In this document: piece after piece, positions 26,932 through 49,765 of the stretch
Position numbering within the stretch: position 1 is the first letter of the stretch
Layout of the letters: each line of letters begins with the position of its first letter
Assembly (NCBI GenBank): GCA_014323545.1
Contig: CP058647.1
Location: forward strand, 2,396,001 to 2,460,000
Direction: 5' to 3'
DNA: 64,000 nt
DNA from: Hyphobacterium sp. CCMP332
Lineage (GTDB): Bacteria > Bacteroidota > Bacteroidia > Cytophagales > CCMP332
The notes under the pieces: generated by a model
What the model was told of the DNA's origin: nothing
Seen by the model: the letters and a program-made list of their open reading frames with translations, nothing else
The model's database searches: none
Position numbers and translations under genes: made by a program

Positions 26932-26946
26932 GTGTACTAAGTACAC
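26932..26946. promoter_or_regulatory. Operator-like palindrome upstream of the secreted amylase
   Basis: GTGTAC-TAA-GTACAC, a perfect 6-bp inverted repeat around TAA, 33 bases before the TTG start. It shares the form KTGTAM-N3-KTACAM, and the TAA spacer and following ACACTTT, with the palindrome at 49750-49764 beside the Nudix regulator. Five bases downstream TATTTTCG (26952-26959) resembles a -7 box with one mismatch. Confidence 0.65.
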
Positions 26947-26979
26947 TTTCTTATTTTCGTTCTTCAAATCATTATTAGA

Positions 26980-29832
26980 TTGCGATTAACTATACTGATT
27001 ATAGTTGTTTTTTTTGCGGTTGTTCAGGAAGTGTTAGCACAGGTTGTTACTCTTGATCCAACTTTTCCCAAACAAACAGATACGGTAACCATAACTTACG
27101 ATGCTACATTGGGCAATGGTGCATTAGAAGGTCAAAGTACTGTTTACGCTCATATGGGTGTAATTACCTCAGAAAGTAACTCACCAAGTGATTGGAAATA
27201 TGTGGTGGGTGAATGGGGCACAGCCGATTCTGATGTACTCATGACTTCAATTGGAAATAATAAATTCATTAAAACCTATGATATCGCCGATTTTCACGGA
27301 ATTCCGGCAGGCGAGATAGTTTTACAATTAGCTTTCGTTTTTAGAAATGCAGATGGCTCAATTGTTGGTCGCTCTGACAACGGAGGAGATATATTTGTAG
27401 ATCTTTTTCAGGGTTCTTATGCCGCGGCCATCATCAAGCCTACTCAGGATTACCTGGTAGTTGAAAATGGTGACACAATATCTATGAAGAGCAGTGCTTC
27501 TGCCATGTCTGAAATAAAAGTATTTGTTGATGGAAATCTTTTTGATAGCATTTCTAACGCTCAGGATTTGAATACGGAAATCCCTGTAGATGATTTTGGA
27601 GCCGGAAAATATTGGGTCAGCATGGAATCCAATTCGGGAACTGAAATAGCGAAGGATTCATTCTATTTCGTTTACCCGGGAACACCTTTTGTACAGGATC
27701 CGCCTGCGGGTATTGATGAAGGCATTAATTATATAGGTGATTCTTCTGTGACACTAAATCTGTATGCGCCATTTAAAGATTATGTTTTCGTATTGGGTGA
27801 TTTCTCCGATTGGGAACTGGATACACAATACTTAATGAATAAAAGTGAAGATGGCGATCATTTTTGGATCAGCTTGAATGGACTTGACCCAAATACGGAA
27901 TATCGATTTCAGTATCAGGTTGAAGAGCAATTGCGAATAGCTGATATTTATTCTGAGAAAATCCTCGATCCTTGGAATGATCCCGAAGTAATAAATGAAG
28001 GAGTTTATCCCAATTTAACCCCTTACCCGAGCGGTCAAACGAATGATCCGGTTTCTGTTTTTTATATAAATAAACCCGAGTATCAATGGGACACTACCAT
28101 AAATTATCAAAAACCCGAAAAAGAGAAACTAATAATTTATGAAACCCTTTTGAGGGATTTTTTAGATGATCACAGTTATAAAGGATTAAAAGATACGCTT
28201 GATTATTTACAAAAACTGGGAGTAAATGCCATACAGTTGATGCCCATTAATGAATTTGAAGGCAATGATTCCTGGGGATACAATCCATCCTTTTATTTTG
28301 CTCCTGATAAATACTACGGCCCCGATTATGAATTAAAAGCCCTCGTGGAAGAATGTCATAGAAGGGATATGGCGGTGATTTTGGATATTGCATTAAACCA
28401 TTCTTTTGGACAAAATCCCCAGGTTAGAATGTATTTTGACCCCGCTGCGGGCAGTTTTGGTCAGCCAACAGGCGAAAATCCCTGGTTTAATCCTATAGCT
28501 AAACACGATTTTAATGTAGGCTACGATTATAACCACGAAAGTCTTAAAACACAGGAATTTGTGGATAAAGTATTGGCCTACTGGGTAAATGAATATCAGA
28601 TAGATGGATACAGAATGGACCTGTCAAAAGGATTTACTCAGGTAAATTCTCTGGGCGATGTCGGATTTTGGGGTCAGCGGGATGCTTCTCGTATTGCCAT
28701 TTGGGAAAGAATAAGAGATGAATTATTGCAGGTAGATAGCAGCACCTATATCATTTTAGAGCATTTTGCAGATAATACAGAAGAGCAGGAATTATCCGCC
28801 AAGGGATTTATGCTTTGGGGCAATTGCAATCACGTATACAATGAAGCCACAATGGGTTTTAGTGGCAATTTATCCTGCATCAATTATCAGGATCGTTCAT
28901 GGTCCAGTCCGTATTTGGTCGGATATATGGAAAGTCACGATGAAGAAAGACTGATGTACAAAAATTTGAATTTTTCAAGGTTTAATGACGATTACACCAT
29001 CCGTGAATTGGACACTGCATTGAAACGTGTGGAATTAGCAGCCAATTTCTTTTTAACCCTTCCCGGTCCAAAAATGATCTGGCAATTTGGGGAATTGGGT
29101 TTTGATTATTCGATTAATAGATGCGTTGACGGTACCATAAGTAACGATTGCCGATTATCAAGAAAACCGATCGTTTGGGATTATTATGAAAATGAAAAAA
29201 GAAAGCGATTGTTCAATGTATTTTCAGAACTGAATCGATTGCGAAAAGAGTACGATGTTTTTCATACAAGTGATTATTCCATCGATGCGAATAGCGCAAT
29301 GAAAAAGATAATATTAAATGGGGAAAAAATGGATGTAGTGGTTTTGGGCAATTTTTCAATCGAAGAAGAGGAAATCATTCCAAAATTTACACAGACAGGG
29401 ACATGGTATGAATTTTACACACAGGATTCCATAATTGTTGAAGATGTTGATCAACCACTTTTAATGGCGAGAGGAGAGTATAGACTGTATTCTACCCAAA
29501 AAATAATTGGTATTTTTAATGATGAACCACCAAAAATTCAGCCACCGGAAGTGCCGGTTGAATTACCTGATTTTATTGTTTACCCCAATCCTTTTACTGA
29601 TGAAACAACGATACAGTTTAACAATGATACTGATCGGGAAGTGGATGTAGAAATTCTTGACCTACTCGGGAAAAAAATCCGAGACATAAGGGTCTCCAAG
29701 AGAGGAAAACAAGAAGTAGTTTGGGACGGTACCAATTCAAAAAAAGAAAGAATGCCGAATGGACAATACATAGTAAGAGTAGTAAAATTTAATAATGTAC
29801 AGGAATTTAAAATTTTGCTTGTAGATGAGTAG
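26980..29832 (+). CDS. Secreted GH13 alpha-amylase with T9SS sorting domain
   Basis: 950 aa, TTG start, signal peptide ending VLAQ. Order: N-terminal beta-sandwich (~20-140, possible starch-binding), a second module, an E-set/CBM48-like domain (~255-345, with NLYAPFKDYVFVLGDFSDW), the GH13 barrel (~365-740) and a C-terminal T9SS sorting domain (~860-950, beginning FIVYPNPFTDETTIQF). Catalytic residues are readable: nucleophile Asp547 in DGYRMDLSKG, acid/base Glu594 in ILEHFAD, Asp654 in ESHDEERL. Predicted to hydrolyse starch at the cell surface after passage through the type IX system. A palindromic operator precedes it; it is the first gene of the plus arm of the starch locus. Confidence 0.9.
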   Translation: MRLTILIIVVFFAVVQEVLAQVVTLDPTFPKQTDTVTITYDATLGNGALEGQSTVYAHMGVITSESNSPSDWKYVVGEWGTADSDVLMTSIGNNKFIKTYDIADFHGIPAGEIVLQLAFVFRNADGSIVGRSDNGGDIFVDLFQGSYAAAIIKPTQDYLVVENGDTISMKSSASAMSEIKVFVDGNLFDSISNAQDLNTEIPVDDFGAGKYWVSMESNSGTEIAKDSFYFVYPGTPFVQDPPAGIDEGINYIGDSSVTLNLYAPFKDYVFVLGDFSDWELDTQYLMNKSEDGDHFWISLNGLDPNTEYRFQYQVEEQLRIADIYSEKILDPWNDPEVINEGVYPNLTPYPSGQTNDPVSVFYINKPEYQWDTTINYQKPEKEKLIIYETLLRDFLDDHSYKGLKDTLDYLQKLGVNAIQLMPINEFEGNDSWGYNPSFYFAPDKYYGPDYELKALVEECHRRDMAVILDIALNHSFGQNPQVRMYFDPAAGSFGQPTGENPWFNPIAKHDFNVGYDYNHESLKTQEFVDKVLAYWVNEYQIDGYRMDLSKGFTQVNSLGDVGFWGQRDASRIAIWERIRDELLQVDSSTYIILEHFADNTEEQELSAKGFMLWGNCNHVYNEATMGFSGNLSCINYQDRSWSSPYLVGYMESHDEERLMYKNLNFSRFNDDYTIRELDTALKRVELAANFFLTLPGPKMIWQFGELGFDYSINRCVDGTISNDCRLSRKPIVWDYYENEKRKRLFNVFSELNRLRKEYDVFHTSDYSIDANSAMKKIILNGEKMDVVVLGNFSIEEEEIIPKFTQTGTWYEFYTQDSIIVEDVDQPLLMARGEYRLYSTQKIIGIFNDEPPKIQPPEVPVELPDFIVYPNPFTDETTIQFNNDTDREVDVEILDLLGKKIRDIRVSKRGKQEVVWDGTNSKKERMPNGQYIVRVVKFNNVQEFKILLVDE

Positions 29833-30008
29833 ATGCTAAATATTGCTTTTAGCTTTAACAATAAAATTAAGTTTAATTATTGATAAATATCATTTTAGGC
29901 TAAATTTTGAAGTTCGAAATTGTAAAGGAATTTGTAACTTTTACAATGCTTTTTAGGGTAAAAACAAGTTAGGAAATATTAAGAATGTTAAATCTAAATT
30001 TTAAAATC
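29833..30008 (+). promoter_or_regulatory. Leader and promoter region of the SusE/C/D genes
   Basis: AT-rich 176-base gap separating the amylase from the SusE-like gene. I see no gene or clear terminator. Its one structured element is the palindrome at 29932-29946 (listed separately) plus an outer inverted repeat ATTGTAAA / TTTACAAT at 29919-29926 and 29940-29947. No exact TAnnTTTG box was found. Confidence 0.4.
29932..29946. promoter_or_regulatory. Operator-like palindrome upstream of the SusE/C/D genes
   Basis: TTGTAA-CTT-TTACAA, a perfect 6-bp inverted repeat with 3-base centre, 62 bases before the SusE-like ATG. It fits the same KTGTAM-N3-KTACAM form as the sites at 26932 and 49750, although the centre and outer base differ. 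An extra TTGTAA half-site lies 12 bases upstream at 29920. Confidence 0.5.
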
Positions 30009-31460
30009 ATGATGAAAATTAAATCAATCGCGTATATCGCAATCCTTTTTGGAGCAGCGGTATTAACAAGTTGTGGGGGAGATGATGGCGGAGGCGCCGT
30101 AATTCCACCGCCAACAGGTGGCTCTGATGATGGTCTTTACATTACCGGAACGGCAACATCGGAAACACCAAGTTCAGCAATAGAAATGGATGATGCATAT
30201 GTAGATGCATTTGGATCCACACCTCCTTATTCTGAAAGACCGGGTTTATATGAAGCATATATTTACATGGAAGCCGGAGATTTCAATATTACTCAAATTG
30301 AAGAGGAAGTTGAAACTGTTTGGGGCGGTACTGTTACCGAAGAAGATCTCGGTAGTGGCAAGATGTGGGTAAGTGCAGATTTTGCCGTTGGCGGAGATGC
30401 ATTTAGCGTAACTGAATCTGGTTTATATCATGTTACTATTGATGTAACTTCCGGAACAGCATACATCGTAAAAATCAATACATATGGATTGATTGGAACA
30501 GCCGGACCGGGATGGAGCTCAGATGCCCCAATGGCACTAAAAAGTGCAGATGCAAATACTGTAGTTTTTGAAGGAACTAATATTGAATTGAAAGCGGGTG
30601 AATTTAAATTCCGTTACAATGAAAATTGGAATTCAGACAGAAGTGCAGCTACTCCTGCTGTTGATGGTTTGAACCTTCTTACAAACTTTGGAACAAATAC
30701 TGAAGGTGGTGATGAAAATGGAGGTTTCCAACCTGGAGGTTTCAATTTCAATTTTACAGGTAATCCGGGTGTTTATACCGTAACCTTAACTTTCTCTCCT
30801 GGAAAAGGATATAGTGCTGTTGCAGAGTTCGAAAGAACCGGAGACGGATCTGGTTTTGATCCAGCCGAGTACAACTGGGGTATAATAGGCGCAGCAACAG
30901 ATAGTGCCTGGGATGCTGATGTGAATTTCATTTACAAAGGTGAAGATGCAGGTACTCACAAATGGGTTGCATTTGTTTATCTTCAAGATGGAGAATTCAA
31001 ATACAGAACCAATGATGCCTGGGATTTCGAATTAAATCCTGGAAATGTTGATCATACCGGAGACGCTGCTTCTGAAGTTAGCGAAGGTGGCAATTTCATA
31101 TTAGATGCCGCTACTGATTCAGGATACTATTATATCACAATTACTACTGCTGATGAAGGCGCGACATGGGCCGTTCAATTTGATGCAGGTGTTTGGGGTA
31201 TAATTGGTGCTGCAACTCCAGGTGGTTGGGATAATTCTACTCCACTGGCTTACAATGGAGACAATTCCTGGTCTGCTGATGTTGTAATGTTGGCAGATGA
31301 GTACAAATTCAGAGCCAATGACTCTTGGGATCTTAACCTAGGTGGTGATCTCAATGCACTTACCCTTGATGGAGCCAATTTAGTTTCTACCGCAGGTACA
31401 TTTACAGTTACTGTAATGACAGCGGATCATGGAGCTACATATACGGCTACACTCCAATAA
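30009..31460 (+). CDS. SusE/SusF-like surface starch-binding lipoprotein
   Basis: 483 aa from ATG 30009 (a second ATG follows directly). Lipobox LTSC (Cys22) followed by GGDDGGG, an acidic signal of the type that directs Bacteroidota lipoproteins to the cell surface. Three to four repeated beta-sandwich units start with a shared motif: YGLIGTAGPGWSSDAPM, WGIIGAATDSAWDADVN and WGIIGAATPGGWDNSTP, each followed ~40 residues later by EFKFRYN/EFKYRTN/EYKFRAN and an Asn-Trp. This matches the tandem carbohydrate-binding modules of SusE/SusF. Unusually it precedes susC instead of following susD, and a terminator separates it from susC. Confidence 0.85.
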   Translation: MMKIKSIAYIAILFGAAVLTSCGGDDGGGAVIPPPTGGSDDGLYITGTATSETPSSAIEMDDAYVDAFGSTPPYSERPGLYEAYIYMEAGDFNITQIEEEVETVWGGTVTEEDLGSGKMWVSADFAVGGDAFSVTESGLYHVTIDVTSGTAYIVKINTYGLIGTAGPGWSSDAPMALKSADANTVVFEGTNIELKAGEFKFRYNENWNSDRSAATPAVDGLNLLTNFGTNTEGGDENGGFQPGGFNFNFTGNPGVYTVTLTFSPGKGYSAVAEFERTGDGSGFDPAEYNWGIIGAATDSAWDADVNFIYKGEDAGTHKWVAFVYLQDGEFKYRTNDAWDFELNPGNVDHTGDAASEVSEGGNFILDAATDSGYYYITITTADEGATWAVQFDAGVWGIIGAATPGGWDNSTPLAYNGDNSWSADVVMLADEYKFRANDSWDLNLGGDLNALTLDGANLVSTAGTFTVTVMTADHGATYTATLQ

Positions 31461-31467
31461 TCATATT

Positions 31468-31501
31468 AAACCCTGCAGGTGAATTCCTGCGGGGTTTTTT
31501 T
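31468..31501 (+). terminator. Terminator or attenuator between the SusE-like gene and susC
   Basis: Stem AACCCTGCAGG / CCTGCGGGGTT (one T-G wobble) with a 6-base loop and a run of seven T. It lies between the SusE-like stop and the susC ATG at 31520, and the 18 bases left before susC have room for no promoter, so partial read-through would set SusE:SusC ratios (inference). Confidence 0.85.
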
Positions 31502-31519
31502 CACTTTTATTGATGAACC

Positions 31520-34500
31520 ATGAGAAAACTATACGCACTTGCTGTGTTCGTACTTTTTTCCGCAACGAACATTTATGCACAAGACATTACAGTTACCGGT
31601 AAGGTAACAGACAGTGAAGATGGGACAGAACTTCCCGGTGTTAGTATCTTAATCAAAGGAACTGCTAAAGGTACTATCACCGATTTTGAAGGTAATTATT
31701 CAATTGATGCTCCATCTGAAGCAACCCTGGTCTTTAATTATCTGGGTTATGAACCGCAAGAAATTTCTGTATCTAATCAAACATCGATTGATGTACAAAT
31801 GAGTACAGAAACTGAAGTGTTGCAAGAAGTCGTTGTTGTTGGATATGGTGTAGTTGAAAAAGGCGATGTAACAGGAGTAATAAAAAAGGTGGACGAGGAA
31901 CAATTCAATAAAGGAATGATTTCTACGCCCCAAAATTTGATTTCAGGAAAAGTTGCCGGTGTTCAGGTCAGTGGATCCGGAGAACCCGGTGGAAATGCTA
32001 CGATAAGAATTAGAGGAGCTACTTCAATCAATGCAAGCAATGACCCTTTATATGTAATTGATGGTGTACCGATAGAAAATGAAGCCGTTACCGGGAGCCG
32101 AAATCCCTTAAACTTTCTAAATCCCAGCGAAATAGCGGATGTCACTGTACTAAAAGATGCTTCAGCCACTGCCATCTATGGAAGTAGAGGAGCAAACGGA
32201 GTAATAATGATTACAACAAAAGGTGGAGCGGTAAGGGAAGGAAAGGCTTCGGATAAACCAATTATCAATTACGATGGATCTTCTTCAGTCAGTACTTTCA
32301 GCGCAGAAACACCAATATTAAGTGCAGAGGAATTTAGGGCAGCCATTGCTGTTTTTGATGATGAAAGAGTAGATAATGAGGCGGTTATAGGACCGGCAGA
32401 TACAGATTGGCTTGATCAAGTCACACAAACAGCCTTTTCTCAACAGCATAATTTGTCGATAGGATCAAATATTCAGGATGGTAATTATCGTTTTTCTACG
32501 GGTTATCAACAAGTCAATGGCGTTTTAAATGATACCAGAACAGAGCGTTATAATGTCAATTTTAATATTTCCAAAGGTCTATTAGACAATCGATTGAATT
32601 TGCGATTTTCCACCAAAAATGCGGTTGTTAATGACAAATTCGGAAGCAATCAGGTTGGAGCCGCATTAAGCTATAATCCAACTCAACCGATTTACTTTGA
32701 CACAAGTTTGTACCAAAACGGACCTCCGGCTGGAATGACCGGTCGATTTGGTGGTTTTACAGAATATAATGATCCATTGGCTGTTGCAAACCCAGTAGCT
32801 CAAAGTAAACATCAAAAGGCTGTAGGTGAGTCCTTTAGAAGTATTAATAATTTCGAAGTCAACTATAAACTACCTTTTGTTCCGGGTTTAAGTATAAAGA
32901 ACAATATAGCTTTAGATCAAAAAGTAACAGATAATCTGAGTTTTTCACCAAATTTTATCAAATCAGAACTGAGAACTCAAGGTCAATACAGCTTCGAGCG
33001 ATCTTCGGTTCAGTCCTTTCTTTATGAAGGCTATTTGAATTATGAAAAAAGTATTGATGCCATCGATGCAAAAGTCACTGCGGTAGGAGGGTATTCATAT
33101 CAGTCATGGGATAAATCTTTTGGATTTTTCAGACATGATTCACTCAATACCAACGCATTTGGATTAGATGCGCCGGCACCAATTTCTAATTCTAATGTGG
33201 TGATAGGAAACAACGCCTTTCAAAACAGATTGATTTCATTCTATGGTCGTTTTAATTTTGACTGGAAAGATAAATATCTTGTTACAGGTACATTAAGACG
33301 TGACGGTTCAACCCGTTTCGGCCCTGAAAACCGATGGGCATTATTTCCGTCTTTTGCTGCCGCCTGGAGAATATCCAACGAAGACTTTTATGAAGGCCTG
33401 GATAGATACGTCAATTACTTAAAACTTCGCGTTGGTTATGGTATAACCGGTAATCAGGAGATCGCGGATTACAGGTATTTGACGACATATGAATTTTCAA
33501 CCCCCACTGGTTCTTATCAATTAGGAAATCAACTAATAAATACCCTGAGACCTACGGCTGTTGATCCCGATATAAAATGGGAAGAAACAACATCAATAAA
33601 TGTTGGATTGGATTGGGAGATTTTAAAAGGAAAATTGGCCGGTGCATTTGAGTATTATCAACAAAATACAGATGATTTAATATTCGAAGTGGCCATTCCG
33701 GTTGGAATACTTCCAACAGATAAAGTCATCACGAATATAGGTGAAATGAGAAACAGAGGATTTGAAATGGACATATCAAGTCCGATAATGACCAGAAGAG
33801 ATTTCATGTGGAATGTTTCTTTTAATGCGGCGTATAACAATAATGAAATATTGCGATTGGATAATACGGTAGCAGGTGCTGAAGAAACAATTTATCCAAG
33901 AGGAGGAATTGCCGGTGATGTTGGTCAAACCATACAGGTATTGAAAGTAGGAGAATCAATAAATTCATTCTACGCTTATGAGCAATTGTATGATGCCAAT
34001 GGCGACCCTATTTATGAACCGATTAACAGAACCTTGATGTACAAGGATCAAAATAATGACAGTATAATCAATGAAAAGGATTTACGTGTTGCAAAAAATG
34101 CCAACCCCGATTGGATATTTGGATTAACTTCTGTTATGAACTATAAAAAAATTGATTTTGCATTTACTTTCAGGGCTAACCTTGGAAACTATGCATACAA
34201 CAATTTTTCATCGAATTATGGAGAATTGAGAAGATTGCAAACTGCAGTACCTCAAAATATCCATACTTCAGCATTGGAAACGGGATTTGAACAAAAACAA
34301 ATATTATCTGATTATTATATAGAAAATGCATCGTTTTTAAGATTGGATAATGTGACGATCGGTTATTCCATTGACAGATTGGATTGGATGAAAGCGCGAA
34401 TCTATTTTACAGCACAAAATGTATTTGTTGTAACTAATTATTCTGGTTTTGATCCAGAGATTCAACCTTCAAACCCTAATGACCCTCCGGGTATTGATAA

Positions 34501-34555
34501 TAATTTGTATCCAAGAGCCAGAACATTTTTAGGTGGGATATCACTAACATTTTAA
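31520..34555 (+). CDS. susC: SusC/RagA-family TonB-dependent outer-membrane transporter
   Basis: 1011 aa. Signal peptide (to NIYAQ), a carboxypeptidase-regulatory-like beta domain (~22-105, with VTGKVTDSEDGTELPGVSI), the TonB-box-like EVVVVGYG (~110-117), a plug domain (~120-230 with IRIRGATSINASNDPLYVID) and a long beta-barrel ending in aromatic-rich FLGGISLTF. It imports oligosaccharides across the outer membrane with the SusD lid encoded next. Substrate maltodextrin is inferred from the surrounding GH13/GH65 genes. Confidence 0.95.
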   Translation: MRKLYALAVFVLFSATNIYAQDITVTGKVTDSEDGTELPGVSILIKGTAKGTITDFEGNYSIDAPSEATLVFNYLGYEPQEISVSNQTSIDVQMSTETEVLQEVVVVGYGVVEKGDVTGVIKKVDEEQFNKGMISTPQNLISGKVAGVQVSGSGEPGGNATIRIRGATSINASNDPLYVIDGVPIENEAVTGSRNPLNFLNPSEIADVTVLKDASATAIYGSRGANGVIMITTKGGAVREGKASDKPIINYDGSSSVSTFSAETPILSAEEFRAAIAVFDDERVDNEAVIGPADTDWLDQVTQTAFSQQHNLSIGSNIQDGNYRFSTGYQQVNGVLNDTRTERYNVNFNISKGLLDNRLNLRFSTKNAVVNDKFGSNQVGAALSYNPTQPIYFDTSLYQNGPPAGMTGRFGGFTEYNDPLAVANPVAQSKHQKAVGESFRSINNFEVNYKLPFVPGLSIKNNIALDQKVTDNLSFSPNFIKSELRTQGQYSFERSSVQSFLYEGYLNYEKSIDAIDAKVTAVGGYSYQSWDKSFGFFRHDSLNTNAFGLDAPAPISNSNVVIGNNAFQNRLISFYGRFNFDWKDKYLVTGTLRRDGSTRFGPENRWALFPSFAAAWRISNEDFYEGLDRYVNYLKLRVGYGITGNQEIADYRYLTTYEFSTPTGSYQLGNQLINTLRPTAVDPDIKWEETTSINVGLDWEILKGKLAGAFEYYQQNTDDLIFEVAIPVGILPTDKVITNIGEMRNRGFEMDISSPIMTRRDFMWNVSFNAAYNNNEILRLDNTVAGAEETIYPRGGIAGDVGQTIQVLKVGESINSFYAYEQLYDANGDPIYEPINRTLMYKDQNNDSIINEKDLRVAKNANPDWIFGLTSVMNYKKIDFAFTFRANLGNYAYNNFSSNYGELRRLQTAVPQNIHTSALETGFEQKQILSDYYIENASFLRLDNVTIGYSIDRLDWMKARIYFTAQNVFVVTNYSGFDPEIQPSNPNDPPGIDNNLYPRARTFLGGISLTF

Positions 34556-34561
34556 GAAATC

Positions 34562-38989: not shown

Positions 38990-38990
38990 A

Positions 38991-40736: not shown

Positions 40737-40740
40737 TCGA

Positions 40741-42114: not shown

Positions 42115-44462
42115 TTTGTTAAAATTTCAAAGCCATGTGCTTTTACACTTACTACGGCGTGGCCATTTCCTGTTTGCATATTACTGCCAAAATTGACCTT
42201 CAAATCTGATGCCCCCGGAATCGCAAAATTCTTGACTCTGGATACGTTATTGATGATCACAACCACATGGTCGTTGAAATACTTTCTTTCAAATGTCATT
42301 GTAAATTCATCAACATCGATCAACCTGAGGTCTCCGTAATTTAGAGCCATGTGATTTTTTCTAATCTCGGATAATTTGGCAACGGTACTGCGCATTTCTT
42401 TTTGATCATCACTCAAACTATCAAAAATCATCATGCGTCTGTTATCCGGATCATTTCCACCAGGCATACCGATTTCATCACCATAATATATCACCGGAAT
42501 TCCGGGTATGGTGAAATTTAAAGCATGCAATTGCGCCAGTCTTTGAAAGCCTATCTTTCCATTATTGTCTATTTCCCTGGTCCAACCGGCTAGCTTTGTG
42601 TCTTCTCCCGGGTCTAGGGAACCATCGGCCAGTGAAATAAAGCGGGGCCTATCCTGGTTTCCGGAAATGTACCCCATCAGGTTATGATAACCATAGAAAT
42701 CAAGACTTTCTGTAAGTGTTGAAGCCAGGTCATTCATAGAATTGTCTTCATTATTTAATATGGTTATGGCTTTATCGTAAAAATTAAAATCAAATTGAGC
42801 ATCCATTTGGCCTGAATTAACGTAACTGCCAATCAGCTCGGCATTGCCATAAGTTTCACCGATTTGATAAATTGATCTATCTTCAGGTAACATGACGCGT
42901 AGTTTTAACTTCCTTGTCAAAGTTCTCCAAAATACTTCCGGAATGTGTTTGGTAGCATCATGTCTGAAACCATCTATTTCAAAATTTTCAAACCAATACA
43001 AAGCAGAATCAGACATGGCCTCATAAACCACTGGATTTTCAAGGTCGAGTGTGGGCAAATGAGTATCAAACCAGGTTGTTAAACGGTATTCATCCCATTT
43101 TTCAGTGTTCAAAGAACTATCGGGAAGATAAAGGTCAGTTGCCCATTCCGGATGTTGCAGATAAACCGGATGTTCCAGATGCACATGATTGGCGACATAA
43201 TCGAGCAAAACATTTTTATTGTTTTCATGCGCAGTAGTTATCATTTTTCGCAAATCTTCATCCGTACCAAATCGATAATCTACAGCTTTTGATTGGGCGG
43301 GCCAATAGCCGTGGTAACCAGAAAATTTACTGACAACTCCGCCTTTATCCCACAAACCCCAGGCACCTTCAGGATTCAATCCTATCGGAGATAGCCAAAC
43401 GGTATTCATGTTTAATTGATCGAAAAAACCTTCTTCAATTTTTTGACTGACCCCTTCAATATCCCCACCCAGATAATTGGCTTGTGGCATAATCATAGGG
43501 TCATCCACCGGTTTGTCATTTTCCTTATCAGCATTATAAAAACGATCCACCATCAAAAAATACATTCTAAAACTGTGTTTGTCTTTCCTGTTAAGCTCAG
43601 CAGTGCTCTCAATTACATTTCCGTTTTTCAATGGCACAAGCATGTCATTGGAAAGCCCATTTTTGTTAAAAGCCCAAATTCTTAAATGTGATCTTTCTAT
43701 TGTTCCGGCTATTTCGGGAATTTTTATCTGAATAATTTCTTTTTTGTTTGAAACAAATTGATCGGGTAATTTATGATTCTCCCAGAATACAAGGATACCA
43801 TCGAGTTTCTGTTCGCTTTTTATTCGTATTGATCCATCAAGTACTTTTGAACCGTAGATAAAAGGCTTATCATCTTTAAGCTCTCCAACAATGATCCTTG
43901 AATTATAACCCCCTGTTCCGTTATCTATTGAATCTGAGTTAAAAGGATCCAGAATTTCCCGGCCATCGGCCACAACACGATATTGATATTCACCGGGGAA
44001 AAGGTATTTCTCATAGACCCAGTTATCCCCTTCGCGCTGCAATATTGAAGCCTTGTGATTCCATCCGTTGAAATTGCCCTTTAATGAAAGCGATGTGTAT
44101 TCATCGGCAAATGGCAGTGAGAATTTAAACTTAAGCTTGCGATTGGCTTTTATCGGAATCGATAAAACCGTATCGCCCAAATGGACTTTTATATCCGAAA
44201 TCGGATTTTGCAAATCGCCCTTAATCGTAAGAATATTATTTTCCCATTTTGCTATCTCAAGACTGTCAGGAGCGATGACCGAATTAATTTTTCCTGGATT
44301 GATAAAATAGTCTTCCAGGTAAAGCAAAGTACTATCAGGTTCCAGTTGTACAGGACTCGCCAATGTCGTGATAGCATTGCTGTATAAAATTTCCGGTTCT
44401 TTATTCTGCTGACATGAAAAAAACAAAACAGTTAATACCGAAATAGCGAAATACCTTTTCAT
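42111..44462 (-). CDS. Multidomain GH13 lipoprotein with CBM48/E-set domain (783 aa)
   Basis: Start taken at ATG 44462, four bases after the GH65 stop, because it gives a lipoprotein signal (LFFSC, Cys17); the frame extends upstream inside the GH65 gene. Domains: N-terminal region, CBM48/AMPK-type glycogen-binding domain (~113-195, with SLKGNFNGWNHKASILQ and GEYQYRVVADG), linker beta domain, GH13 barrel (~298-690), C-terminal beta domain. Catalytic Asp502 (DGFRHDATKH), Glu536 (QIGETYGN) and Asp604 in GNQDRPRF, where the usual NHD is NQD. Probably a pullulanase/neopullulanase-type or maltogenic enzyme; exact specificity is not readable. Confidence 0.88.
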   Translation of the reverse strand: MKRYFAISVLTVLFFSCQQNKEPEILYSNAITTLASPVQLEPDSTLLYLEDYFINPGKINSVIAPDSLEIAKWENNILTIKGDLQNPISDIKVHLGDTVLSIPIKANRKLKFKFSLPFADEYTSLSLKGNFNGWNHKASILQREGDNWVYEKYLFPGEYQYRVVADGREILDPFNSDSIDNGTGGYNSRIIVGELKDDKPFIYGSKVLDGSIRIKSEQKLDGILVFWENHKLPDQFVSNKKEIIQIKIPEIAGTIERSHLRIWAFNKNGLSNDMLVPLKNGNVIESTAELNRKDKHSFRMYFLMVDRFYNADKENDKPVDDPMIMPQANYLGGDIEGVSQKIEEGFFDQLNMNTVWLSPIGLNPEGAWGLWDKGGVVSKFSGYHGYWPAQSKAVDYRFGTDEDLRKMITTAHENNKNVLLDYVANHVHLEHPVYLQHPEWATDLYLPDSSLNTEKWDEYRLTTWFDTHLPTLDLENPVVYEAMSDSALYWFENFEIDGFRHDATKHIPEVFWRTLTRKLKLRVMLPEDRSIYQIGETYGNAELIGSYVNSGQMDAQFDFNFYDKAITILNNEDNSMNDLASTLTESLDFYGYHNLMGYISGNQDRPRFISLADGSLDPGEDTKLAGWTREIDNNGKIGFQRLAQLHALNFTIPGIPVIYYGDEIGMPGGNDPDNRRMMIFDSLSDDQKEMRSTVAKLSEIRKNHMALNYGDLRLIDVDEFTMTFERKYFNDHVVVIINNVSRVKNFAIPGASDLKVNFGSNMQTGNGHAVVSVKAHGFEILTK

Positions 44463-44466
44463 GATT

Positions 44467-46770
44467 TTAAAGCTTAATTTCAATTGTTTGCTGTCCATTA
44501 AGCTCATAGGAATTGGAATGAACCATAAAATGAATCTCATTATTTGAAAGATTCTCAACATTCAGACTCGTTGAACTTACCGTAATACCAAGTTCAGATT
44601 CCTTAAATCTGATTTTAAAACTAATGGACTCCCATTGTTCAGGAATTGATGGGTTTAAATGCAATTTTCCATTTAATACACGCATGCCTCCAAATCCTTC
44701 GATCATGGACATCCAGGTTCCTGCCATGCTGGTTATATGCAATCCTTCATCCACCTCACGGTTATAATCGTCTATATCAAGTCTTGATGTTCTGAGATAC
44801 ATCTCATAGGCTTTTTCCTTTTTACCCAGCTTGCAGGCTAAAATCGAGTGAATGCAAGGAGATAGTGAAGATTCATGTACTGTTCTAGGCTCATAAAAGT
44901 CAAAATTCCTTCTTAATGTATCTTCATCATATTCATCTTCAAAAACATAGAGTCCCTGAAGTGTGTCCGCTTGTTTAATAAAACATGAACGCAGTATTCT
45001 GTCCCATGACCAATGCTGATTAATAGGCCGTTCCGATTCGGGAAGATCATCTGCCATTATTTGTTCCTTATCTAAAAAACCGTCTTGTTGAAGAAATACT
45101 CCAAGTTCTTTTGATTCGGGAAAATGGAGATGGTCAATTATTTTTTGCCAGTCATTTATTTCCTCCTCTTTAAAATTAATACGTTTCAGCATCGGACTTA
45201 CTTCGGGATGATCCTTCCATTTATTGATCATTTCTACACAATATTTTAAAGTCCATTGTGCCATTTTATTTGTATACCAATTGTTGTTGATATTATTCTC
45301 GTATTCATTTGGACCGGTAACACCAAGCATCACATACTTTTGTTTGGCTTCAGACCAATTAATTCGCTGTTTCCAGAATCTGGAAATCCCGATTAAAACT
45401 TCGAGACCGTATTCTGCAATATATTCTTCTCCTCCGGTGTAATTAACATAATCGTAAATCGCCCTCGCAATAGCACCGTTTCTATGAATTTCTTCAAAGG
45501 TTATTTCCCATTCATTATGGCATTCTTCGCCATTCATGGTTACCATAGGATATAAAGCGGCACCATTTGTAAAGCCCAACTTCTTTGCATTTTCAATGGC
45601 TTTTTGAAGATGTTTGTAACGGTATATCAGTAACTGTCTCGCCACGGATTTATCTGCTGTACATAGATAAAAATGCAGGCAATAAGCTTCAGTATCCCAA
45701 TAGGTACTTCCACCGTACTTTTCACCTGTAAAGCCCTTTGGACCAATGTTTAATCTGTCGTCCTCGCCGGTATATGTTTGATTCAGATGAAAAATATTAA
45801 ATCGGATGCCTTGTTGTGCAGCGACATCGCCATTGACAATTATATCGCTGTGTTTCCATTTTTCTGCCCAGGCCTGGCTATGCTCCTTGAGCATTTGCTC
45901 AAATCCTTTCGATTTGCATTGCTCTAGATTGATATAACAATTTTTAGAAAGTTGTGCTTTGGGATGGTTTTCGGAACTCAGGTTGGCGGCAAACTTATGA
46001 ATACACAATTCATCACCTGCTTTGAGATCTATTTCAAATACGTTGGAGATGTATTTTTCGGCACTTTTCAGTTCAATTTCAGGTTCCTGGATTTCGTTGT
46101 TTTTAAAAACTGAAAAATTCATTCCCGAGCAAACTTGAAAGTCCAGCTTTTTGGTTTTAGCTGTACAAAAGCCCTTGCCTTTTAATGTTTCCTTCTCTAT
46201 TTCATCCCAGAATTTTTCATCGTAATTGGCATCGGTGTTTTTTACGTCAAAATCAATATATGGCTCCACTCTAAAAATACCGCCCTTATCGAGATTTTTA
46301 ATTTTGTACTGAATGGCAGCACATTCATCATCGACAAGGCTGCAAAAACGTGTAGATTCCACTTCAACCCTATGACCATTTGGGAATTGAGCTTTGAATT
46401 TTCTTATCAACAGACCTTGCTTCATGTCCAATTCTCTGTGAAAATTCAGAACTTTCATTTTAGCCAGGTCGAGACTTTGGCCATTGACTGATATTCGAAT
46501 GCCTATCCAGTTGGCGGCATTTAGCACTTTGGCAAAATATTCGGGATATCCATTTTTCCACCAGCCAACACGTGTTTTGTCCGGATAATAAACCCCGGCG
46601 ATATAACTTCCCCGTAGAGATTTACCGGAATATTCTTCTTCGAAATTGGCTCTTTGTCCCATTCTTCCATTTCCAATACTGAAAATGCTTTCAGAGCCCT
46701 CTTGACGATCCGGATTAAATTCTTTCTCAATAATTTTCCATGGATCGAGCTCGTAATATTGATCTCTCAC
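44467..46770 (-). CDS. mapA: GH65 maltose phosphorylase
   Basis: 767 aa, GTG start. Cytoplasmic (no signal). It cleaves maltose with phosphate to glucose and beta-glucose-1-phosphate. The GH65 catalytic motif MNGEECHNEWEITFEE (around residues 412-427) contains the general acid; TYWDTEAYC is another conserved site. The N-terminal beta-sandwich (EGSESIFSIGNGRMGQRANFEE) and (alpha/alpha)6 barrel are full length. Neighbouring beta-phosphoglucomutase uses the beta anomer this inverting enzyme makes, which supports maltose phosphorylase over trehalose or kojibiose phosphorylase, although those remain possible. Confidence 0.92.
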   Translation of the reverse strand: MRDQYYELDPWKIIEKEFNPDRQEGSESIFSIGNGRMGQRANFEEEYSGKSLRGSYIAGVYYPDKTRVGWWKNGYPEYFAKVLNAANWIGIRISVNGQSLDLAKMKVLNFHRELDMKQGLLIRKFKAQFPNGHRVEVESTRFCSLVDDECAAIQYKIKNLDKGGIFRVEPYIDFDVKNTDANYDEKFWDEIEKETLKGKGFCTAKTKKLDFQVCSGMNFSVFKNNEIQEPEIELKSAEKYISNVFEIDLKAGDELCIHKFAANLSSENHPKAQLSKNCYINLEQCKSKGFEQMLKEHSQAWAEKWKHSDIIVNGDVAAQQGIRFNIFHLNQTYTGEDDRLNIGPKGFTGEKYGGSTYWDTEAYCLHFYLCTADKSVARQLLIYRYKHLQKAIENAKKLGFTNGAALYPMVTMNGEECHNEWEITFEEIHRNGAIARAIYDYVNYTGGEEYIAEYGLEVLIGISRFWKQRINWSEAKQKYVMLGVTGPNEYENNINNNWYTNKMAQWTLKYCVEMINKWKDHPEVSPMLKRINFKEEEINDWQKIIDHLHFPESKELGVFLQQDGFLDKEQIMADDLPESERPINQHWSWDRILRSCFIKQADTLQGLYVFEDEYDEDTLRRNFDFYEPRTVHESSLSPCIHSILACKLGKKEKAYEMYLRTSRLDIDDYNREVDEGLHITSMAGTWMSMIEGFGGMRVLNGKLHLNPSIPEQWESISFKIRFKESELGITVSSTSLNVENLSNNEIHFMVHSNSYELNGQQTIEIKL

Positions 46771-46779
46771 GTCTTAATC

Positions 46780-47427
46780 TTAAAATTTCAAAATATCCAA
46801 ATTGGTGTTTTCAAAACCCGGAATCACTTTATCCGCCATACTGAGTACTTTTGCATCACCCACACCAATACATTTCATATTGGCATTTTTTGCAGCTTCA
46901 ACACCTGCGATCGCATCTTCGAAAACCACACATTCATCTGCTTCAAGTCCAAGCGCATCGGCTCCTTTAATAAATACCTCCGGATCGGGTTTCGAGTTTG
47001 AGATATGATTACCGTCAATGATGGCATCAAAAAAATCATATAATTCAATTCCTTTTAAAATGGTAGGGGCATTTTTACTTGAGGATCCTATGGCCATTTT
47101 AAAATTTTGACTTTTAGCATTTTCTAAAAAGTCTTTTACCCCTGGTAAAATTTCAGATGGATGCATCTGTTTGATCAGCGATTTGTAGTGTTCATTTTTT
47201 TCATTTAAGAGAATCTCTTTCTCATGTTCTGCAATATCAATATTGCCCCATTTCAGAATTCTTTTTAATGAGTCCTCTCTACCAACGCCTTTTAATTGCT
47301 CATTTTCTTCATGACTGAAGGGTACTTTAAGTTTATCTGCCAATGCTTTCCAGGCTGTAAAATGATACTTGGCCGTATCGACAATCACTCCATCTAAATC
47401 AAAAAGCAATCCTTTAATTTCGGACAT
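46780..47427 (-). CDS. pgmB: Beta-phosphoglucomutase
   Basis: 215 aa from ATG 47427 (MSEIKGLLFDLDGVIVDTA); upstream codons overlap the preceding gene without family similarity. HAD-superfamily phosphatase-like fold: DLDGVIVDTAKYHF with the nucleophile and acid/base Asp pair and the TAxxH signature that distinguishes beta-PGM, SSSKNA (motif II), KPDPEVF, and VFEDAIAGVEAA (motif III). Converts beta-glucose-1-phosphate to glucose-6-phosphate. It overlaps the methylglyoxal-synthase-like gene by 14 bases and lies nine bases upstream of the GH65 gene. Confidence 0.94.
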   Translation of the reverse strand: MSEIKGLLFDLDGVIVDTAKYHFTAWKALADKLKVPFSHEENEQLKGVGREDSLKRILKWGNIDIAEHEKEILLNEKNEHYKSLIKQMHPSEILPGVKDFLENAKSQNFKMAIGSSSKNAPTILKGIELYDFFDAIIDGNHISNSKPDPEVFIKGADALGLEADECVVFEDAIAGVEAAKNANMKCIGVGDAKVLSMADKVIPGFENTNLDILKF

Positions 47428-47833
47428 CCGGATTCGTTTTTTTGTTTGCTTTCTCCTTATGGAAAACACCTAAGATAAGTAATTCTGCGGAGGCCCGATT
47501 AGTGGCGAGGGGTATGTTCATGACATTGCAGGTTTTTAGAAGATTTTCAATATCCTCATGGTTGTTTTTAACCTCATGGTCTCTAAAGAAAAACACCACC
47601 GAAATTTCACCATTTTTAAGCATTTCGGTGATCTGCACGTATCCGCCTGATCTGCCACGACTTAAATGTTGGACCTTAACCTTTAAATCTTCACTTTCAA
47701 TAAATTCAGCAGTTCTGCCCGTGGCAATAATATTTCTCTGCCACAACCAATCCTCAATGTCTTTTAAAAATGCTCTGAGATCTGGTTTTTTTTTGTCATG
47801 GGCAATGACAGCAATATTTCTGTTAAACACCAT
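47414..47833 (-). CDS. Methylglyoxal synthase-like protein with altered active site
   Basis: 139 aa. Clear MGS fold: IAVIAHDKKK, IIATGRTAEFIE, SGGYVQITEMLKNGEI, VVFFFRDHEV, HEDIENLLKTCNVMNIPLATN and a C-terminal SAELLI. E. coli MgsA has catalytic Asp71 in GGDQQ; here that residue is Tyr (GGYVQ). The phosphate-binding TGTT is TGRT. The His and Asp of AHD and the His98/Asp101 equivalents (HEDI, with one residue deleted) remain. Loss of Asp71 suggests it no longer makes methylglyoxal from dihydroxyacetone phosphate, or does so poorly. It may bind a triose or sugar phosphate as a regulator. Embedded in an operon of maltose/hexose metabolism, seven bases after the sugar kinase. Confidence 0.8.
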   Translation of the reverse strand: MVFNRNIAVIAHDKKKPDLRAFLKDIEDWLWQRNIIATGRTAEFIESEDLKVKVQHLSRGRSGGYVQITEMLKNGEISVVFFFRDHEVKNNHEDIENLLKTCNVMNIPLATNRASAELLILGVFHKEKANKKTNPDVRN

Positions 47834-47839
47834 TATCTT

Positions 47840-48694
47840 TTAATCTAGTTTATATTTCAGATGGTATTCTATTAGGCCATCAATTGGCTTTTTTTCGATC
47901 TTACCAATAGTGAATTTATTCTCTTTTGCAACCTTTCGCAATATGTCTTCACAAAAATAACCTACTGATCCTACGAAATGTACCGGGACTTCCAGGTAAT
48001 TTTTGAAACATTTTATATGAATATCAATAAATTCATTGAGACCCTTTTCTATCATTTTTTTGATATAAGGATGGTCTTTAAAATTGGAAATAAAACTCAT
48101 ATAGCCAGCGAGGTAAACATTGGCATTGGGTTCTTTGTATACAGAGTGTATTACCTTGTCTTTGCTTGGCTCGTACTCTTTTACAAAAGGCTCGACAATT
48201 TCTTTGGGCAATCGTTTATAAAAGTAATCTCTTAAAAGTGCCCGACCAAAATAGCTTCCGCTACCTTCATCGCCAAGAATATATGCGAGAGATGGCACCT
48301 CTTCATAAATTTTTTTACCATCAAAAAAACAGGAATTGGAACCTGTGCCAAGAATACAGGAAATGGCAGGATTACCGTCGTAAGTGGCATAAGCTGCCCC
48401 AACAAGATCGTGATCTACCTCAACTTTGGCTTGTGGGAAAAAATAACTCAAGGCTTCATTCAAAACCTTATTGAGATGAGAAGCAGATGCGCCTGCTCCA
48501 TAAAAAAATACTTTTTCCACGCGCTTTAATGGCGGAAAATGCCCCCTGTTAAGATGTAATTCTTTTAAAATGAATTCTTTGGAATGAAAATATGGATTGA
48601 AACCAATTGTACTGAAAACGGAAATAATATTGCCGTCATTTTCTACAATTGCCCAATCGCATTTCGTCGAACCACTATCTGCTACAATAATCAT
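47840..48694 (-). CDS. BadF/BadG/BcrA/BcrD-family sugar kinase (N-acetylglucosamine kinase-like)
   Basis: 284 aa ASKHA-fold kinase. Phosphate-1 loop VADSGSTKCDWAI at the N terminus, phosphate-2 loop ILGTGSNSCFF, and LGDEGSGSYFGRALL matching the sugar-site region of GlcNAc-kinase-type BadF ATPases. Phosphorylates a hexose or amino sugar with ATP. In this operon the pathway releases free glucose from maltose phosphorolysis, so a glucokinase-like role is attractive; substrate is inference. Eleven bases after pfkA. Confidence 0.85.
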   Translation of the reverse strand: MIIVADSGSTKCDWAIVENDGNIISVFSTIGFNPYFHSKEFILKELHLNRGHFPPLKRVEKVFFYGAGASASHLNKVLNEALSYFFPQAKVEVDHDLVGAAYATYDGNPAISCILGTGSNSCFFDGKKIYEEVPSLAYILGDEGSGSYFGRALLRDYFYKRLPKEIVEPFVKEYEPSKDKVIHSVYKEPNANVYLAGYMSFISNFKDHPYIKKMIEKGLNEFIDIHIKCFKNYLEVPVHFVGSVGYFCEDILRKVAKENKFTIGKIEKKPIDGLIEYHLKYKLD

Positions 48695-48705
48695 TGCTTA
48701 ATTTT

Positions 48706-49692
48706 TTATGTTGATAAAATATCGGAAATCCTGTGAAGATTCTCATCCATTTTTGATGTTTTGGAAATAGCATCTTTGAGCGGTGTATAAACGATGTCTT
48801 TATGAATTTTTCCAACCATGCAATTGGATTTTCCTTCTATTAATCCTTCCACTGCTCCAACGCCTAATTTGCTGGCTAAAATCCTATCGTGAATGGAAGG
48901 TGCACCTCCTCTTTGAATATGACCTAGAATTGTCACTTTTGACTCATAATAGCTGAACCTTTTTTCCACTTCCCTTGCGATATCAACGGCTTTGCCTAAA
49001 TGCCCTCCTTCAGCTACAATGATAATACTGGAGACTTTTTTACTTTCCATTCCTCTGTTGAGCTTTGAGATCAGATCTTCAATAGACATTTTCCTTTCGG
49101 GTATAATTGCCGCAATTGCCCCTGAGGCCAGAGCACAACTGGTTGCAATATATCCGGCATCCCTACCCATCACTTCAACAAAGAATATTCTGTTATGGGA
49201 AAGAGCAGTATCTCTAATTTTATCGACAGCATCAATAACTGTATTACAGGCAGAATCGAAGCCTATAGTAAAATCAGATCCGAAAAGATCATTATCAATT
49301 GTTCCCGGTATACCCATGACGGATATGCCAAATTCTTCCTGAAATTTCATTGCACCTGTAAAAGTGCCATTGCCGCCAATTACAATTAAAGCTTCAATAC
49401 CTCTGGACTTCAAATTTTCAAAAGCTTTTTCACGTCCTTCTTTCTCTCTAAATGCCTCACTTCGGGCAGATTTTAATATAGTACCACCTTTTTGAAGAAT
49501 TTGCGAAACCGATCGCGGGTTTAGTGCACGAATATCATTTTCTATCAAACCTTCAAAGCCTCGGAATACACCGTAAACTTCAAGATTATAGAAAAGTGAG
49601 CTTCTTACAACTGACCTGATGGCTGCATTCATTCCCGGGGCATCACCACCTGAGGTGAGGACGGCCACCTTTTTTAAAGCATTGTTATTCAA
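48706..49692 (-). CDS. pfkA: ATP-dependent 6-phosphofructokinase
   Basis: 328 aa, TTG start (no in-frame ATG upstream). VLTSGGDAPGMNAAIRSVVR begins the ATP site; IPGTIDNDLFGSD carries the catalytic Asp, and EVMGRDAGYIA and GHIQRGGAPS contact fructose-6-phosphate. In IGGNGTFTGA the Mg-ATP residue that is Asp103 in E. coli (GGDGS) is Asn108; the following Gly109 matches ATP-using enzymes. It heads the minus operon of maltose use, so upper glycolysis is co-expressed with maltose breakdown. A canonical -7 box and operator lie upstream. Confidence 0.93.
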   Translation of the reverse strand: MNNNALKKVAVLTSGGDAPGMNAAIRSVVRSSLFYNLEVYGVFRGFEGLIENDIRALNPRSVSQILQKGGTILKSARSEAFREKEGREKAFENLKSRGIEALIVIGGNGTFTGAMKFQEEFGISVMGIPGTIDNDLFGSDFTIGFDSACNTVIDAVDKIRDTALSHNRIFFVEVMGRDAGYIATSCALASGAIAAIIPERKMSIEDLISKLNRGMESKKVSSIIIVAEGGHLGKAVDIAREVEKRFSYYESKVTILGHIQRGGAPSIHDRILASKLGVGAVEGLIEGKSNCMVGKIHKDIVYTPLKDAISKTSKMDENLHRISDILST

Positions 49693-49726
49693 TTGATTAT
49701 AAGACGTTTTAATTAGTTTTGGTACT

Positions 49727-49734
49727 CAAAGATA
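49727..49734 (-). promoter_or_regulatory. -7 box of the pfkA/maltose operon
   Basis: On the minus strand TATCTTTG, an exact TAnnTTTG match, 34 bases before the pfkA TTG. The 17-bp palindrome at 49749-49765 begins 14 bases upstream of it, overlapping the expected -33 region. Confidence 0.7.
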
Positions 49735-49748
49735 CAGTTTTCTTACAT

Positions 49749-49765
49749 AGTGTAATAATTACACT
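49749..49765. promoter_or_regulatory. 17-bp operator palindrome between the Nudix regulator and pfkA
   Basis: AGTGTAAT-A-ATTACACT, a perfect inverted repeat in the divergent promoter region. Its inner 15 bases (GTGTAA-TAA-TTACAC) match the form of palindromes upstream of the amylase (26932) and SusE/C/D genes (29932). It sits over the -33 region of the pfkA operon promoter and is well placed for autoregulation of the regulator. Confidence 0.7.

Follow-up and report, generated by a model that had tools for sequence, protein, structure and literature searches.

A putative NrtR/AraR-type Nudix repressor and its predicted GTGT-N7-ACAC operators at starch, maltose and glycolysis genes of Hyphobacterium sp. 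CCMP332

We analyzed a 64,000-nucleotide stretch (the window; contig CP058647.1, positions 2,396,001 to 2,460,000) of the genome of Hyphobacterium sp. CCMP332, which measures 3.33 Mb and forms one contig. The initial annotation of the window had proposed that three palindromes of one type, near genes for starch capture, maltose breakdown and upper glycolysis, mark the single regulon of a Nudix-domain regulator encoded beside them. Strong comparative evidence indicated that two of the three, at 26932 and 49750, are most likely operators of one regulon; the outcome corrects the motif and removes the third site, at 29932. The reading that we favor, with a probability of roughly 0.8, is that the Nudix protein is a repressor with (A)GTGT-N7-ACAC(T) operators at 49750 and 26932, from which an alpha-glucan product would release it. 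For a group of Bacteroidota, this offers a testable regulator for a single circuit that would link extracellular starch capture with maltose phosphorolysis and pfkA. The features on which the argument turns are as follows.

26932..26946, no strand: predicted operator 1, GTGTACTAAGTACAC, between a TrkH-type gene and the secreted amylase gene
49750..49764, no strand: predicted operator 2, GTGTAATAATTACAC, between pfkA (minus) and the Nudix regulator gene (plus)
29932..29946, no strand: palindrome before susE, TTGTAACTTTTACAA, a weak operator or none, in the 152-bp gap between the amylase gene and the gene in the susE position
49841..50554, plus strand: Nudix (NrtR/AraR-like) regulator, 237 aa (Pfam NrtR_WHD, AraR_C and NUDIX above cut-offs)
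48706..49692, minus strand: pfkA, first gene of a predicted operon (TIGR02482 above cut-off)
26980..29832, plus strand: secreted amylase with a sorting tail (Alpha-amylase and Por_Secre_tail; TTG start in the list of open reading frames [ORFs])

A conserved GTGT-N7-ACAC signal

All three palindromes were present letter for letter, between ORFs and before the genes named for them. As a type, perfect palindromes with 6-base arms and a 3-base spacer (6-3-6) were not rare, since the window holds 30 of them and other spacers give 17 to 35; the claimed uniqueness was retained for TGTA-N5-TACA, which is confined to these three places of the window (shuffle mean, 0.79; 3 copies reached in 2 of 100 shuffles). 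GTGTA-N5-TACAC and GTGT-N7-ACAC each matched twice in the window, a count reached in 0 and 7 of 100 shuffles, respectively. A scan of the whole genome with a degenerate 15-mer gave no enrichment (13 places versus 17 for the reversed control); 10 of the 13 lay within ORFs, and the 3 between ORFs were the three window sites only. The 6-3-6 palindrome, as common as other spacers and with its 15-mer not enriched, was rejected as the motif, and the conserved signal was instead (A)GTGT-N7-ACAC(T), with GTGT-N7-ACAC as its core. The single-genome case for the palindromes is suggestive; the comparative evidence is decisive.

Regulator homologs were searched for in two genome sets, both including the window genome: 148 genomes, of which 85 gave a match at E 1e-3, and 395 genomes of the class, of which 120 did so at E 1e-40. 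In named genomes of the GTDB collection, a query with the single protein found nothing, and a scan with an alignment (A1) gave loci. Loci were taken around chosen regulator matches (three, L148, L216 and L227, were dropped because the ORF caller gave no regulator ORF), and the locus sets overlap in part. Genomes and loci are given below by our G and L handles. Among the relatives, the regulator gene is often divergent from pfkA and/or genes for the kinase, beta-phosphoglucomutase (beta-PGM), GH65, GH13 and transporter proteins, and some have amylase-susC on the regulator's other side. All palindromic 4-base half-sites with spacers of 0 to 12 were counted in the DNA upstream of 46 maltose-linked regulator genes, among them the second copies of L123 and L130 but not the window gene. 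GTGT-N7 came top, in 36 of the 46; the runners-up, AGTG-N9 (25) and TGTA-N5 (21), are sub-frames of the same site, and the next unrelated half-site reached 9. The 5-base half-site AGTGT-N7 was found in 25 of the 46 regions, versus a maximum of 4 for anything in 200 mononucleotide shuffles.

The signal was also strongly intergenic. In maltose loci, 69 of 75 copies of GTGT-N7-ACAC lay between genes, where only ~7% of the DNA is found (51 kb intergenic, 724 kb ORF), versus 1 intergenic and 22 ORF copies for three control palindromes together; among the 6 ORF copies is the pfkA site of G001 (L044:12154), which lies under an over-long ORF and was counted a second time, as intergenic, in L097. The consensus of the 69 copies is roughly A/T-A-GTGT-A/C-N5-T/G-ACAC-T-A/T. 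Conservation before orthologous genes, the check on which the proposed regulon had been made to depend, was borne out: in 112 maltose-linked loci (duplicates were removed if their last 120 upstream bases agreed fully, so that near-copies remain), a site preceded pfkA in 42/44 cases, the regulator gene in 72/87, the kinase gene in 29/57 (the kinase gene often follows pfkA), the amylase gene (amyS) in 8/11, the cyclomaltodextrinase gene in 4/6, susC in 13/21, the transporter gene in 2/7 and other genes in 20/351. The named set from the GTDB collection, in which Marivirga sericea and various Mucilaginibacter strains are represented, comprised 80 loci (78 with a regulator ORF), with a site in 50 of 65 maltose-linked loci versus 2 of 13 others. 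No intergenic copy was found in 19 GH65/SusD regions (18 genomes, 34 kb intergenic) without a nearby Nudix regulator; 2 copies lay within ORFs. Setting aside the window genome and G001, 19 genomes carried GH65 genes; the regions cover 18 of these (all but G031) and, in addition, one SusD region, and some of the genomes carry Nudix paralogues elsewhere.

G001 is the only other genome of the same family with a regulator match (G002 had none). Its TGTA-N5-TACA sites lie in the regulator/pfkA gap, before the amylase gene, before susC and, twice, before the cyclomaltodextrinase gene (one site 33 bp upstream of that homologue), and the operator arms, spacing and promoter block at its amylase gene match those at 26932.

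A matrix built from the relatives' sites, window excluded, ranked 49750 (25.5) and 26932 (20.7) first and second in the window, and the next-best site (10.9) lay within an ORF. The third member of the proposed set, 29932, scored −2.2 (rank 63; training minimum, 11.7), a score reached by 30% of shuffles of its 152-bp gap (P = 0.30). It also lacks TAnnTTTG, the −7 word of the Bacteroidota consensus, at the usual distance. We rejected 29932 as an operator on these grounds, and a separate operator for susE-susC-susD is not supported in the window genome; as an RNA hairpin 29932 was dropped too, with no notable structure (z = −0.10). The matrix is biased against variants of this kind because training demanded exact GTGT and ACAC, a few regulator-upstream sites of relatives vary at the outer base too (e.g., ATGTACAAAGTACAT in L135), and 29932 keeps TGTAA-TTACA and outscores every other matrix match in the susE gap. 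Even so, the scores make it unlikely that all three palindromes form one operator set.

The Nudix regulator and its paralogues

The protein belongs to the NrtR/AraR-type regulators, as had been proposed. Its 237 residues matched PF00293 (30.2 bits) and PF21906 (88.7 bits), both above cut-offs; the nearest solved protein by sequence was BtAraR (E = 5e-34), and a structure model (pLDDT 90) found BtAraR (5bs6) as its best fold match in PDB, with 3gz6 also matched. Against the Nudix signature of PMC4666351 (cited here, like PMC3878776, from excerpts), V70 and L74 replace two glutamates and D55 replaces a glycine; S76 also stands in a signature position. Residues were compared over 45 maltose-linked regulators, including that of the window and leaving out the second copies in L123 and L130, and L74 was found in all 45. 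DNA-contact residues K179, R180, N181 and K184 of BtAraR align with K202, R203, N204 and K207 (numbering by our reading), and K204-R205 with H227-K228. The sugar contacts Arg86 and His131 are kept as R93 and H154 (45/45), whereas Arg34 is Q39 in the window protein (arginine in 28 and glutamine in 17 of the 45), so that the Arg34/Arg86/His131 set that would mark an AraR orthologue is incomplete. Relative to BtAraR there is an insertion of ~15 residues (94 to 108), which contains a helix (97 to 106) in the structure model, lies beside the Arg86 equivalent and holds D99, W102, L103 and R107 in 40 of 45 proteins.

The closest described system is AraR (BT0354) of Bacteroides thetaiotaomicron. It is alike in joining a Nudix domain to a winged helix-turn-helix (wHTH) domain, in the GTGT-N7-ACAC core, in the recognition helix DKRNFRK, in a broken Nudix box and in a regulon that links cytoplasmic sugar catabolism to SusCD and hydrolases (PMC4666351). 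A BtAraR-DNA complex has been reported in which the Table 2 duplex contains GTGTTACTTTTACAC and the contacts define, according to the authors, the GTGT motif (PMC4666351). AraR differs in serving the arabinose pathway (PMC4666351), in contrast to the alpha-glucan, maltose and upper-glycolysis genes of the window, and in the pocket, where Arg34 corresponds to Gln39, Gly48 to Asp55, and the insertion is extra. XylR (BT0791) of the same species shares the NrtR family and the linkage to a sugar operon (PMC4666351, PMC3878776) but concerns xylose; the xylose-linked relatives (labeled from sequence starts; BT0791 itself is not among them) lie elsewhere in our tree. NrtR of Shewanella oneidensis (NAD metabolism) shares the fold (3gz6) and the family profile. 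The window protein, however, scored 103.7 bits of the 400 that define the NrtR equivalog, the NAD repressor (NF050029), and its neighbors are maltose and glycolysis genes, not the NAD-gene neighborhood expected of that equivalog; the NAD-linked relatives (our labels) branch separately, and their Nudix box looks intact. SusR of B. thetaiotaomicron likewise controls amylase and SusCD genes but senses at the membrane and has direct repeats with long spacing as its sites, in contrast to a Nudix protein and its short palindrome (PMC3878776). Among the matches listed in a full-text literature search, AraR and XylR were found and no Nudix regulator of maltose, starch or glycolysis was (most subscription journals and RegPrecise being outside its scope). 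The regulator most likely represents a new pathway for the known sugar-responsive NrtR/AraR/XylR family.

A tree of 79 regulators placed the window protein with that of G001 (support, 99/98) in a group of 19, of which 17 were maltose linked and 2 unlabeled (100/95). The tree needed 7 changes to account for maltose linkage, compared with a mean of 25.4 after shuffling, so the maltose-linked regulators do not form one clean clade; a separate pfkA-linked group includes Mucilaginibacter-like genomes. The window genome encodes a second Nudix regulator (G000:C1:1998179-1998814; L062:9629-10318), which groups with the NAD-linked proteins and whose gene is divergent from one for a protein with a guanylate/adenylate-cyclase domain. 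TGTA-N5-TACA was found upstream of 1 of 3 xylose-linked, 1 of 5 NAD-linked and 1 of 1 galactose-linked regulators (labels from the neighbors' sequence starts), so the code is shared beyond the maltose branch; some close relatives away from maltose genes (e.g., L106, L113, L119 and L120) lacked TGTA-N5-TACA upstream. One Nudix-regulator core, known from arabinose control, stands at maltose and glycolysis genes and at some paralogues, which makes the insulation of paralogues within one cell a testable question. L063:9492 (G047) is a Nudix regulator beside galactose-pathway-like genes (named from sequence starts) with GTGTACATTTTACAT upstream. In family f31, a second, strongly diverged Nudix-regulator-like protein is encoded in tandem before the maltose regulator at L123:3051-3761, L130:1000-1710 and L134:10436-11146.

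Proposed repression and its alternatives

The remaining genes of the two predicted transcription units are as follows.

29985..31460, plus strand: protein in the SusE position, named from position alone (no Pfam match)
31520..34555, plus strand: SusC (TIGR04056 above cut-off)
34562..36193, plus strand: SusD (SusD_RagB)
36193..38073, plus strand: cyclomaltodextrinase-type GH13 enzyme (Cyc-maltodext_N and Cyc-maltodext_C)
47840..48694, minus strand: BadF-type sugar kinase, probably a glucokinase (weak Pfam BcrAD_BadFG and NCBIfam NagK matches below cut-offs)
47414..47833, minus strand: MGS-domain protein, likely a methylglyoxal synthase (PF02142 above cut-off)
46780..47469, minus strand: beta-PGM (TIGR01990 above cut-off)
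44467..46770, minus strand: GH65 maltose-phosphorylase-type enzyme, substrate presumed (NF010380 above cut-off)
42111..44561, minus strand: GH13 enzyme (GH13-type NCBIfam models, below their cut-offs)
40741..42114, minus strand: GH13 enzyme (GH13-type NCBIfam models, below their cut-offs)
38991..40736, minus strand: MFS/GPH-type sugar transporter (TIGR01301, 5e-32, below cut-off)

On the minus strand the order after pfkA is kinase, MGS, beta-PGM, GH65, GH13, GH13 and MFS/GPH transporter. The plus-strand genes, amylase-susE-susC-susD-cyclomaltodextrinase-esterase, follow one another with gaps of 152, 59, 6, −1 and −14 bp, so the amylase operator could govern the SUS genes by read-through; otherwise, a weak site could control susE-susC-susD. 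The single regulon first proposed was supported for the amylase gene and the pfkA-maltose operon, and not for a site at susE-susC-susD.

In the mechanism that we propose, a Nudix-domain protein of the NrtR/AraR kind, without catalytic activity, would act as a repressor in dimer form; each winged helix would read GTGT and the dimer (A)GTGT-N7-ACAC(T). When no inducer is present, it would sit on 49750 and 26932 over the −33/−7 region and block three targets: the operon running from pfkA to the transporter gene, the regulator gene itself and the gene for the secreted amylase. Because of read-through from the amylase gene, the block would extend to the five genes that follow. An intracellular alpha-glucan product (maltose, glucose or glucose phosphate, as a guess) would bind the Nudix pocket and shift the wHTH domains in the way known for arabinose and BtAraR, and the genes would be released.

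Promoter geometry suggests repression. In 124 promoter directions, the number of TAnnTTTG words beginning 5 to 29 bp to the 3' side of the operator centre was 30, versus 5 for two control words together, and 5' of the centre it was found 11 times (bins −20 to −11) versus 0 for the control; the exact word was absent in many of the 124. So placed, the operator overlies either the start site or the stretch from −33 to −7, a repressor position. In the window, the −7-like TATTTTCG starts 13 bp from the centre of predicted operator 1, and on the pfkA side TATCTTTG starts 23 bp from that of predicted operator 2. The latter is one of several operator centres lying further upstream, which an activator or dual regulator would allow, and targets such as pckA and gdhA in other genomes (see below) would fit a dual role. 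We nevertheless consider such a regulator improbable, as the frequent distances from operator centre to −7 box, 8 to 18 bp, are too short for RNA polymerase to fit next to a bound dimer, and other NrtR proteins are described as repressors, with arabinose a negative effector of DNA binding by BtAraR (PMC4666351).

Less probable still is that a different regulator (LacI/MalR, SusR or CRP-like) binds these sites and the Nudix gene is a mere neighbor. In Marivirga sericea a LacI-family gene adjoins a susC with such a site between them (L345:2543), which suggests dual control of that susC, and a CRP-like palindrome has been reported in Bacteroides sugar promoters; its consensus, TATGTTnTAnAACATA, is a different sequence (PMC3878776). 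The window genome gave 0 matches to the LacI-family domain PF00356 at E 1e-3 in a search that was positive in 9 of 14 control genomes, in agreement with the initial view that the Nudix regulator stands where a LacI/MalR controller is usual, and a LacI/MalR regulator was rejected for this genome; the window would be a case of such a circuit in a genome without a LacI match. The regulator-free GH65/SusD regions had no intergenic sites, and the core is that of the DNA in the BtAraR co-crystal (PMC4666351). Chance, for which the number of 6-3-6 palindromes and the 7 of 100 shuffles with two GTGT-N7-ACAC might speak, is a very unlikely origin for 26932 and 49750 (a verdict that does not extend to 29932), since sites are conserved before corresponding genes in relatives whose regulators are ~45 to 68% identical.

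Several observations weigh against repression by this one regulator. The −7 box of the amylase gene departs from consensus by one base. For the SUS part, the window genome offers no good site, and in relatives just 13 of the 21 susC genes have one; the exact site was also missing from 10 of the 46 upstream regions with maltose linkage and from 15 of the 65 maltose-linked loci of the named set. GTGT-N7-ACAC was also present in 8 of 32 upstream regions of regulators without maltose linkage, and GTGTCATAATAACAC lies between the second Nudix regulator gene of the window genome and the cyclase-domain gene; because the core is common to paralogues, assignment of sites to one of them rests on position. 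The strict pattern AGTGT-N7-ACACT was not enriched genome-wide in G001 (2 versus 4 for the control), strict sites also precede genes without an evident sugar link (e.g., L288, L290 and L292), and the pckA sites of other genomes do not fit plain sugar induction by de-repression.

Two features of the locus may be added. An MGS-domain gene within the maltose operon was also found in G001, G444, G429, G207 and G265; a methylglyoxal synthase there could be a vent for triose phosphate, freeing phosphate during phosphorolysis. A secreted M1 peptidase gene (50600-52528, plus strand), with no known sugar link, starts 45 bp past the regulator gene and is possibly cotranscribed with it.

Sites at other genes of central carbon metabolism

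Cra, CggR or HexR hold the role of central-carbon repressor elsewhere. A tentative reading, with the balance somewhat against it, is that the Nudix regulator would be a widespread and undescribed counterpart in Bacteroidota, which would have begun with alpha-glucans and maltose, would sense a hexose phosphate in the former Nudix pocket and, in some lineages, would reach to pgi, gapA, zwf, pckA and the genes for isocitrate dehydrogenase, glutamate dehydrogenase and glutamate synthase. AGTGT-N7-ACACT occurred 79 times versus 27 for the reversed pattern in 14 genomes and 33 versus 7 times in six more, and equaled the reversed control in G233, G197 and G529. Outside regulator loci, 19 of 23, 11 of 21 and 14 of 22 strict sites lay between genes in three inspected sets, which are a subset of the contexts; several of the nonintergenic ones overlie starts of over-long ORFs. 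Strict sites preceded pgi and the glutamate dehydrogenase gene (gdhA) in G207 and G429; pckA, for ATP-dependent phosphoenolpyruvate (PEP) carboxykinase, in G207, G429 and Marivirga sericea (three genera; the loci are numbered L196, L294 and L347 in our set, with no pairing implied); the isocitrate dehydrogenase gene in G429; gapA in G265; zwf in G197 (by Pfam) and in G233 and G501 (by sequence start); and the genes for glutamate synthase and a GH97 enzyme in Marivirga.

The window genome itself has 20 GTGT-N7-ACAC places, the ORF context of all of which was inspected. Apart from the two in the window, three stood clear of ORFs, at 42081, at 1712237 and, ahead of the gene for the second Nudix regulator, at 1998929; a fourth place, 2062951, overlaps the start of an ORF. 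These four were dropped as further operators, having no recognized starch or maltose gene downstream. AGTGT-N7-ACACT was found elsewhere in this genome at 2023039 alone, within an ORF, so there was no expansion of the regulon. In G429, 16 of 17 strict sites were intergenic (all 17 viewed; reversed pattern, 1). The breadth of the regulon appears to differ by lineage, as all 6 strict sites of G305 outside its maltose locus lay in ORFs.

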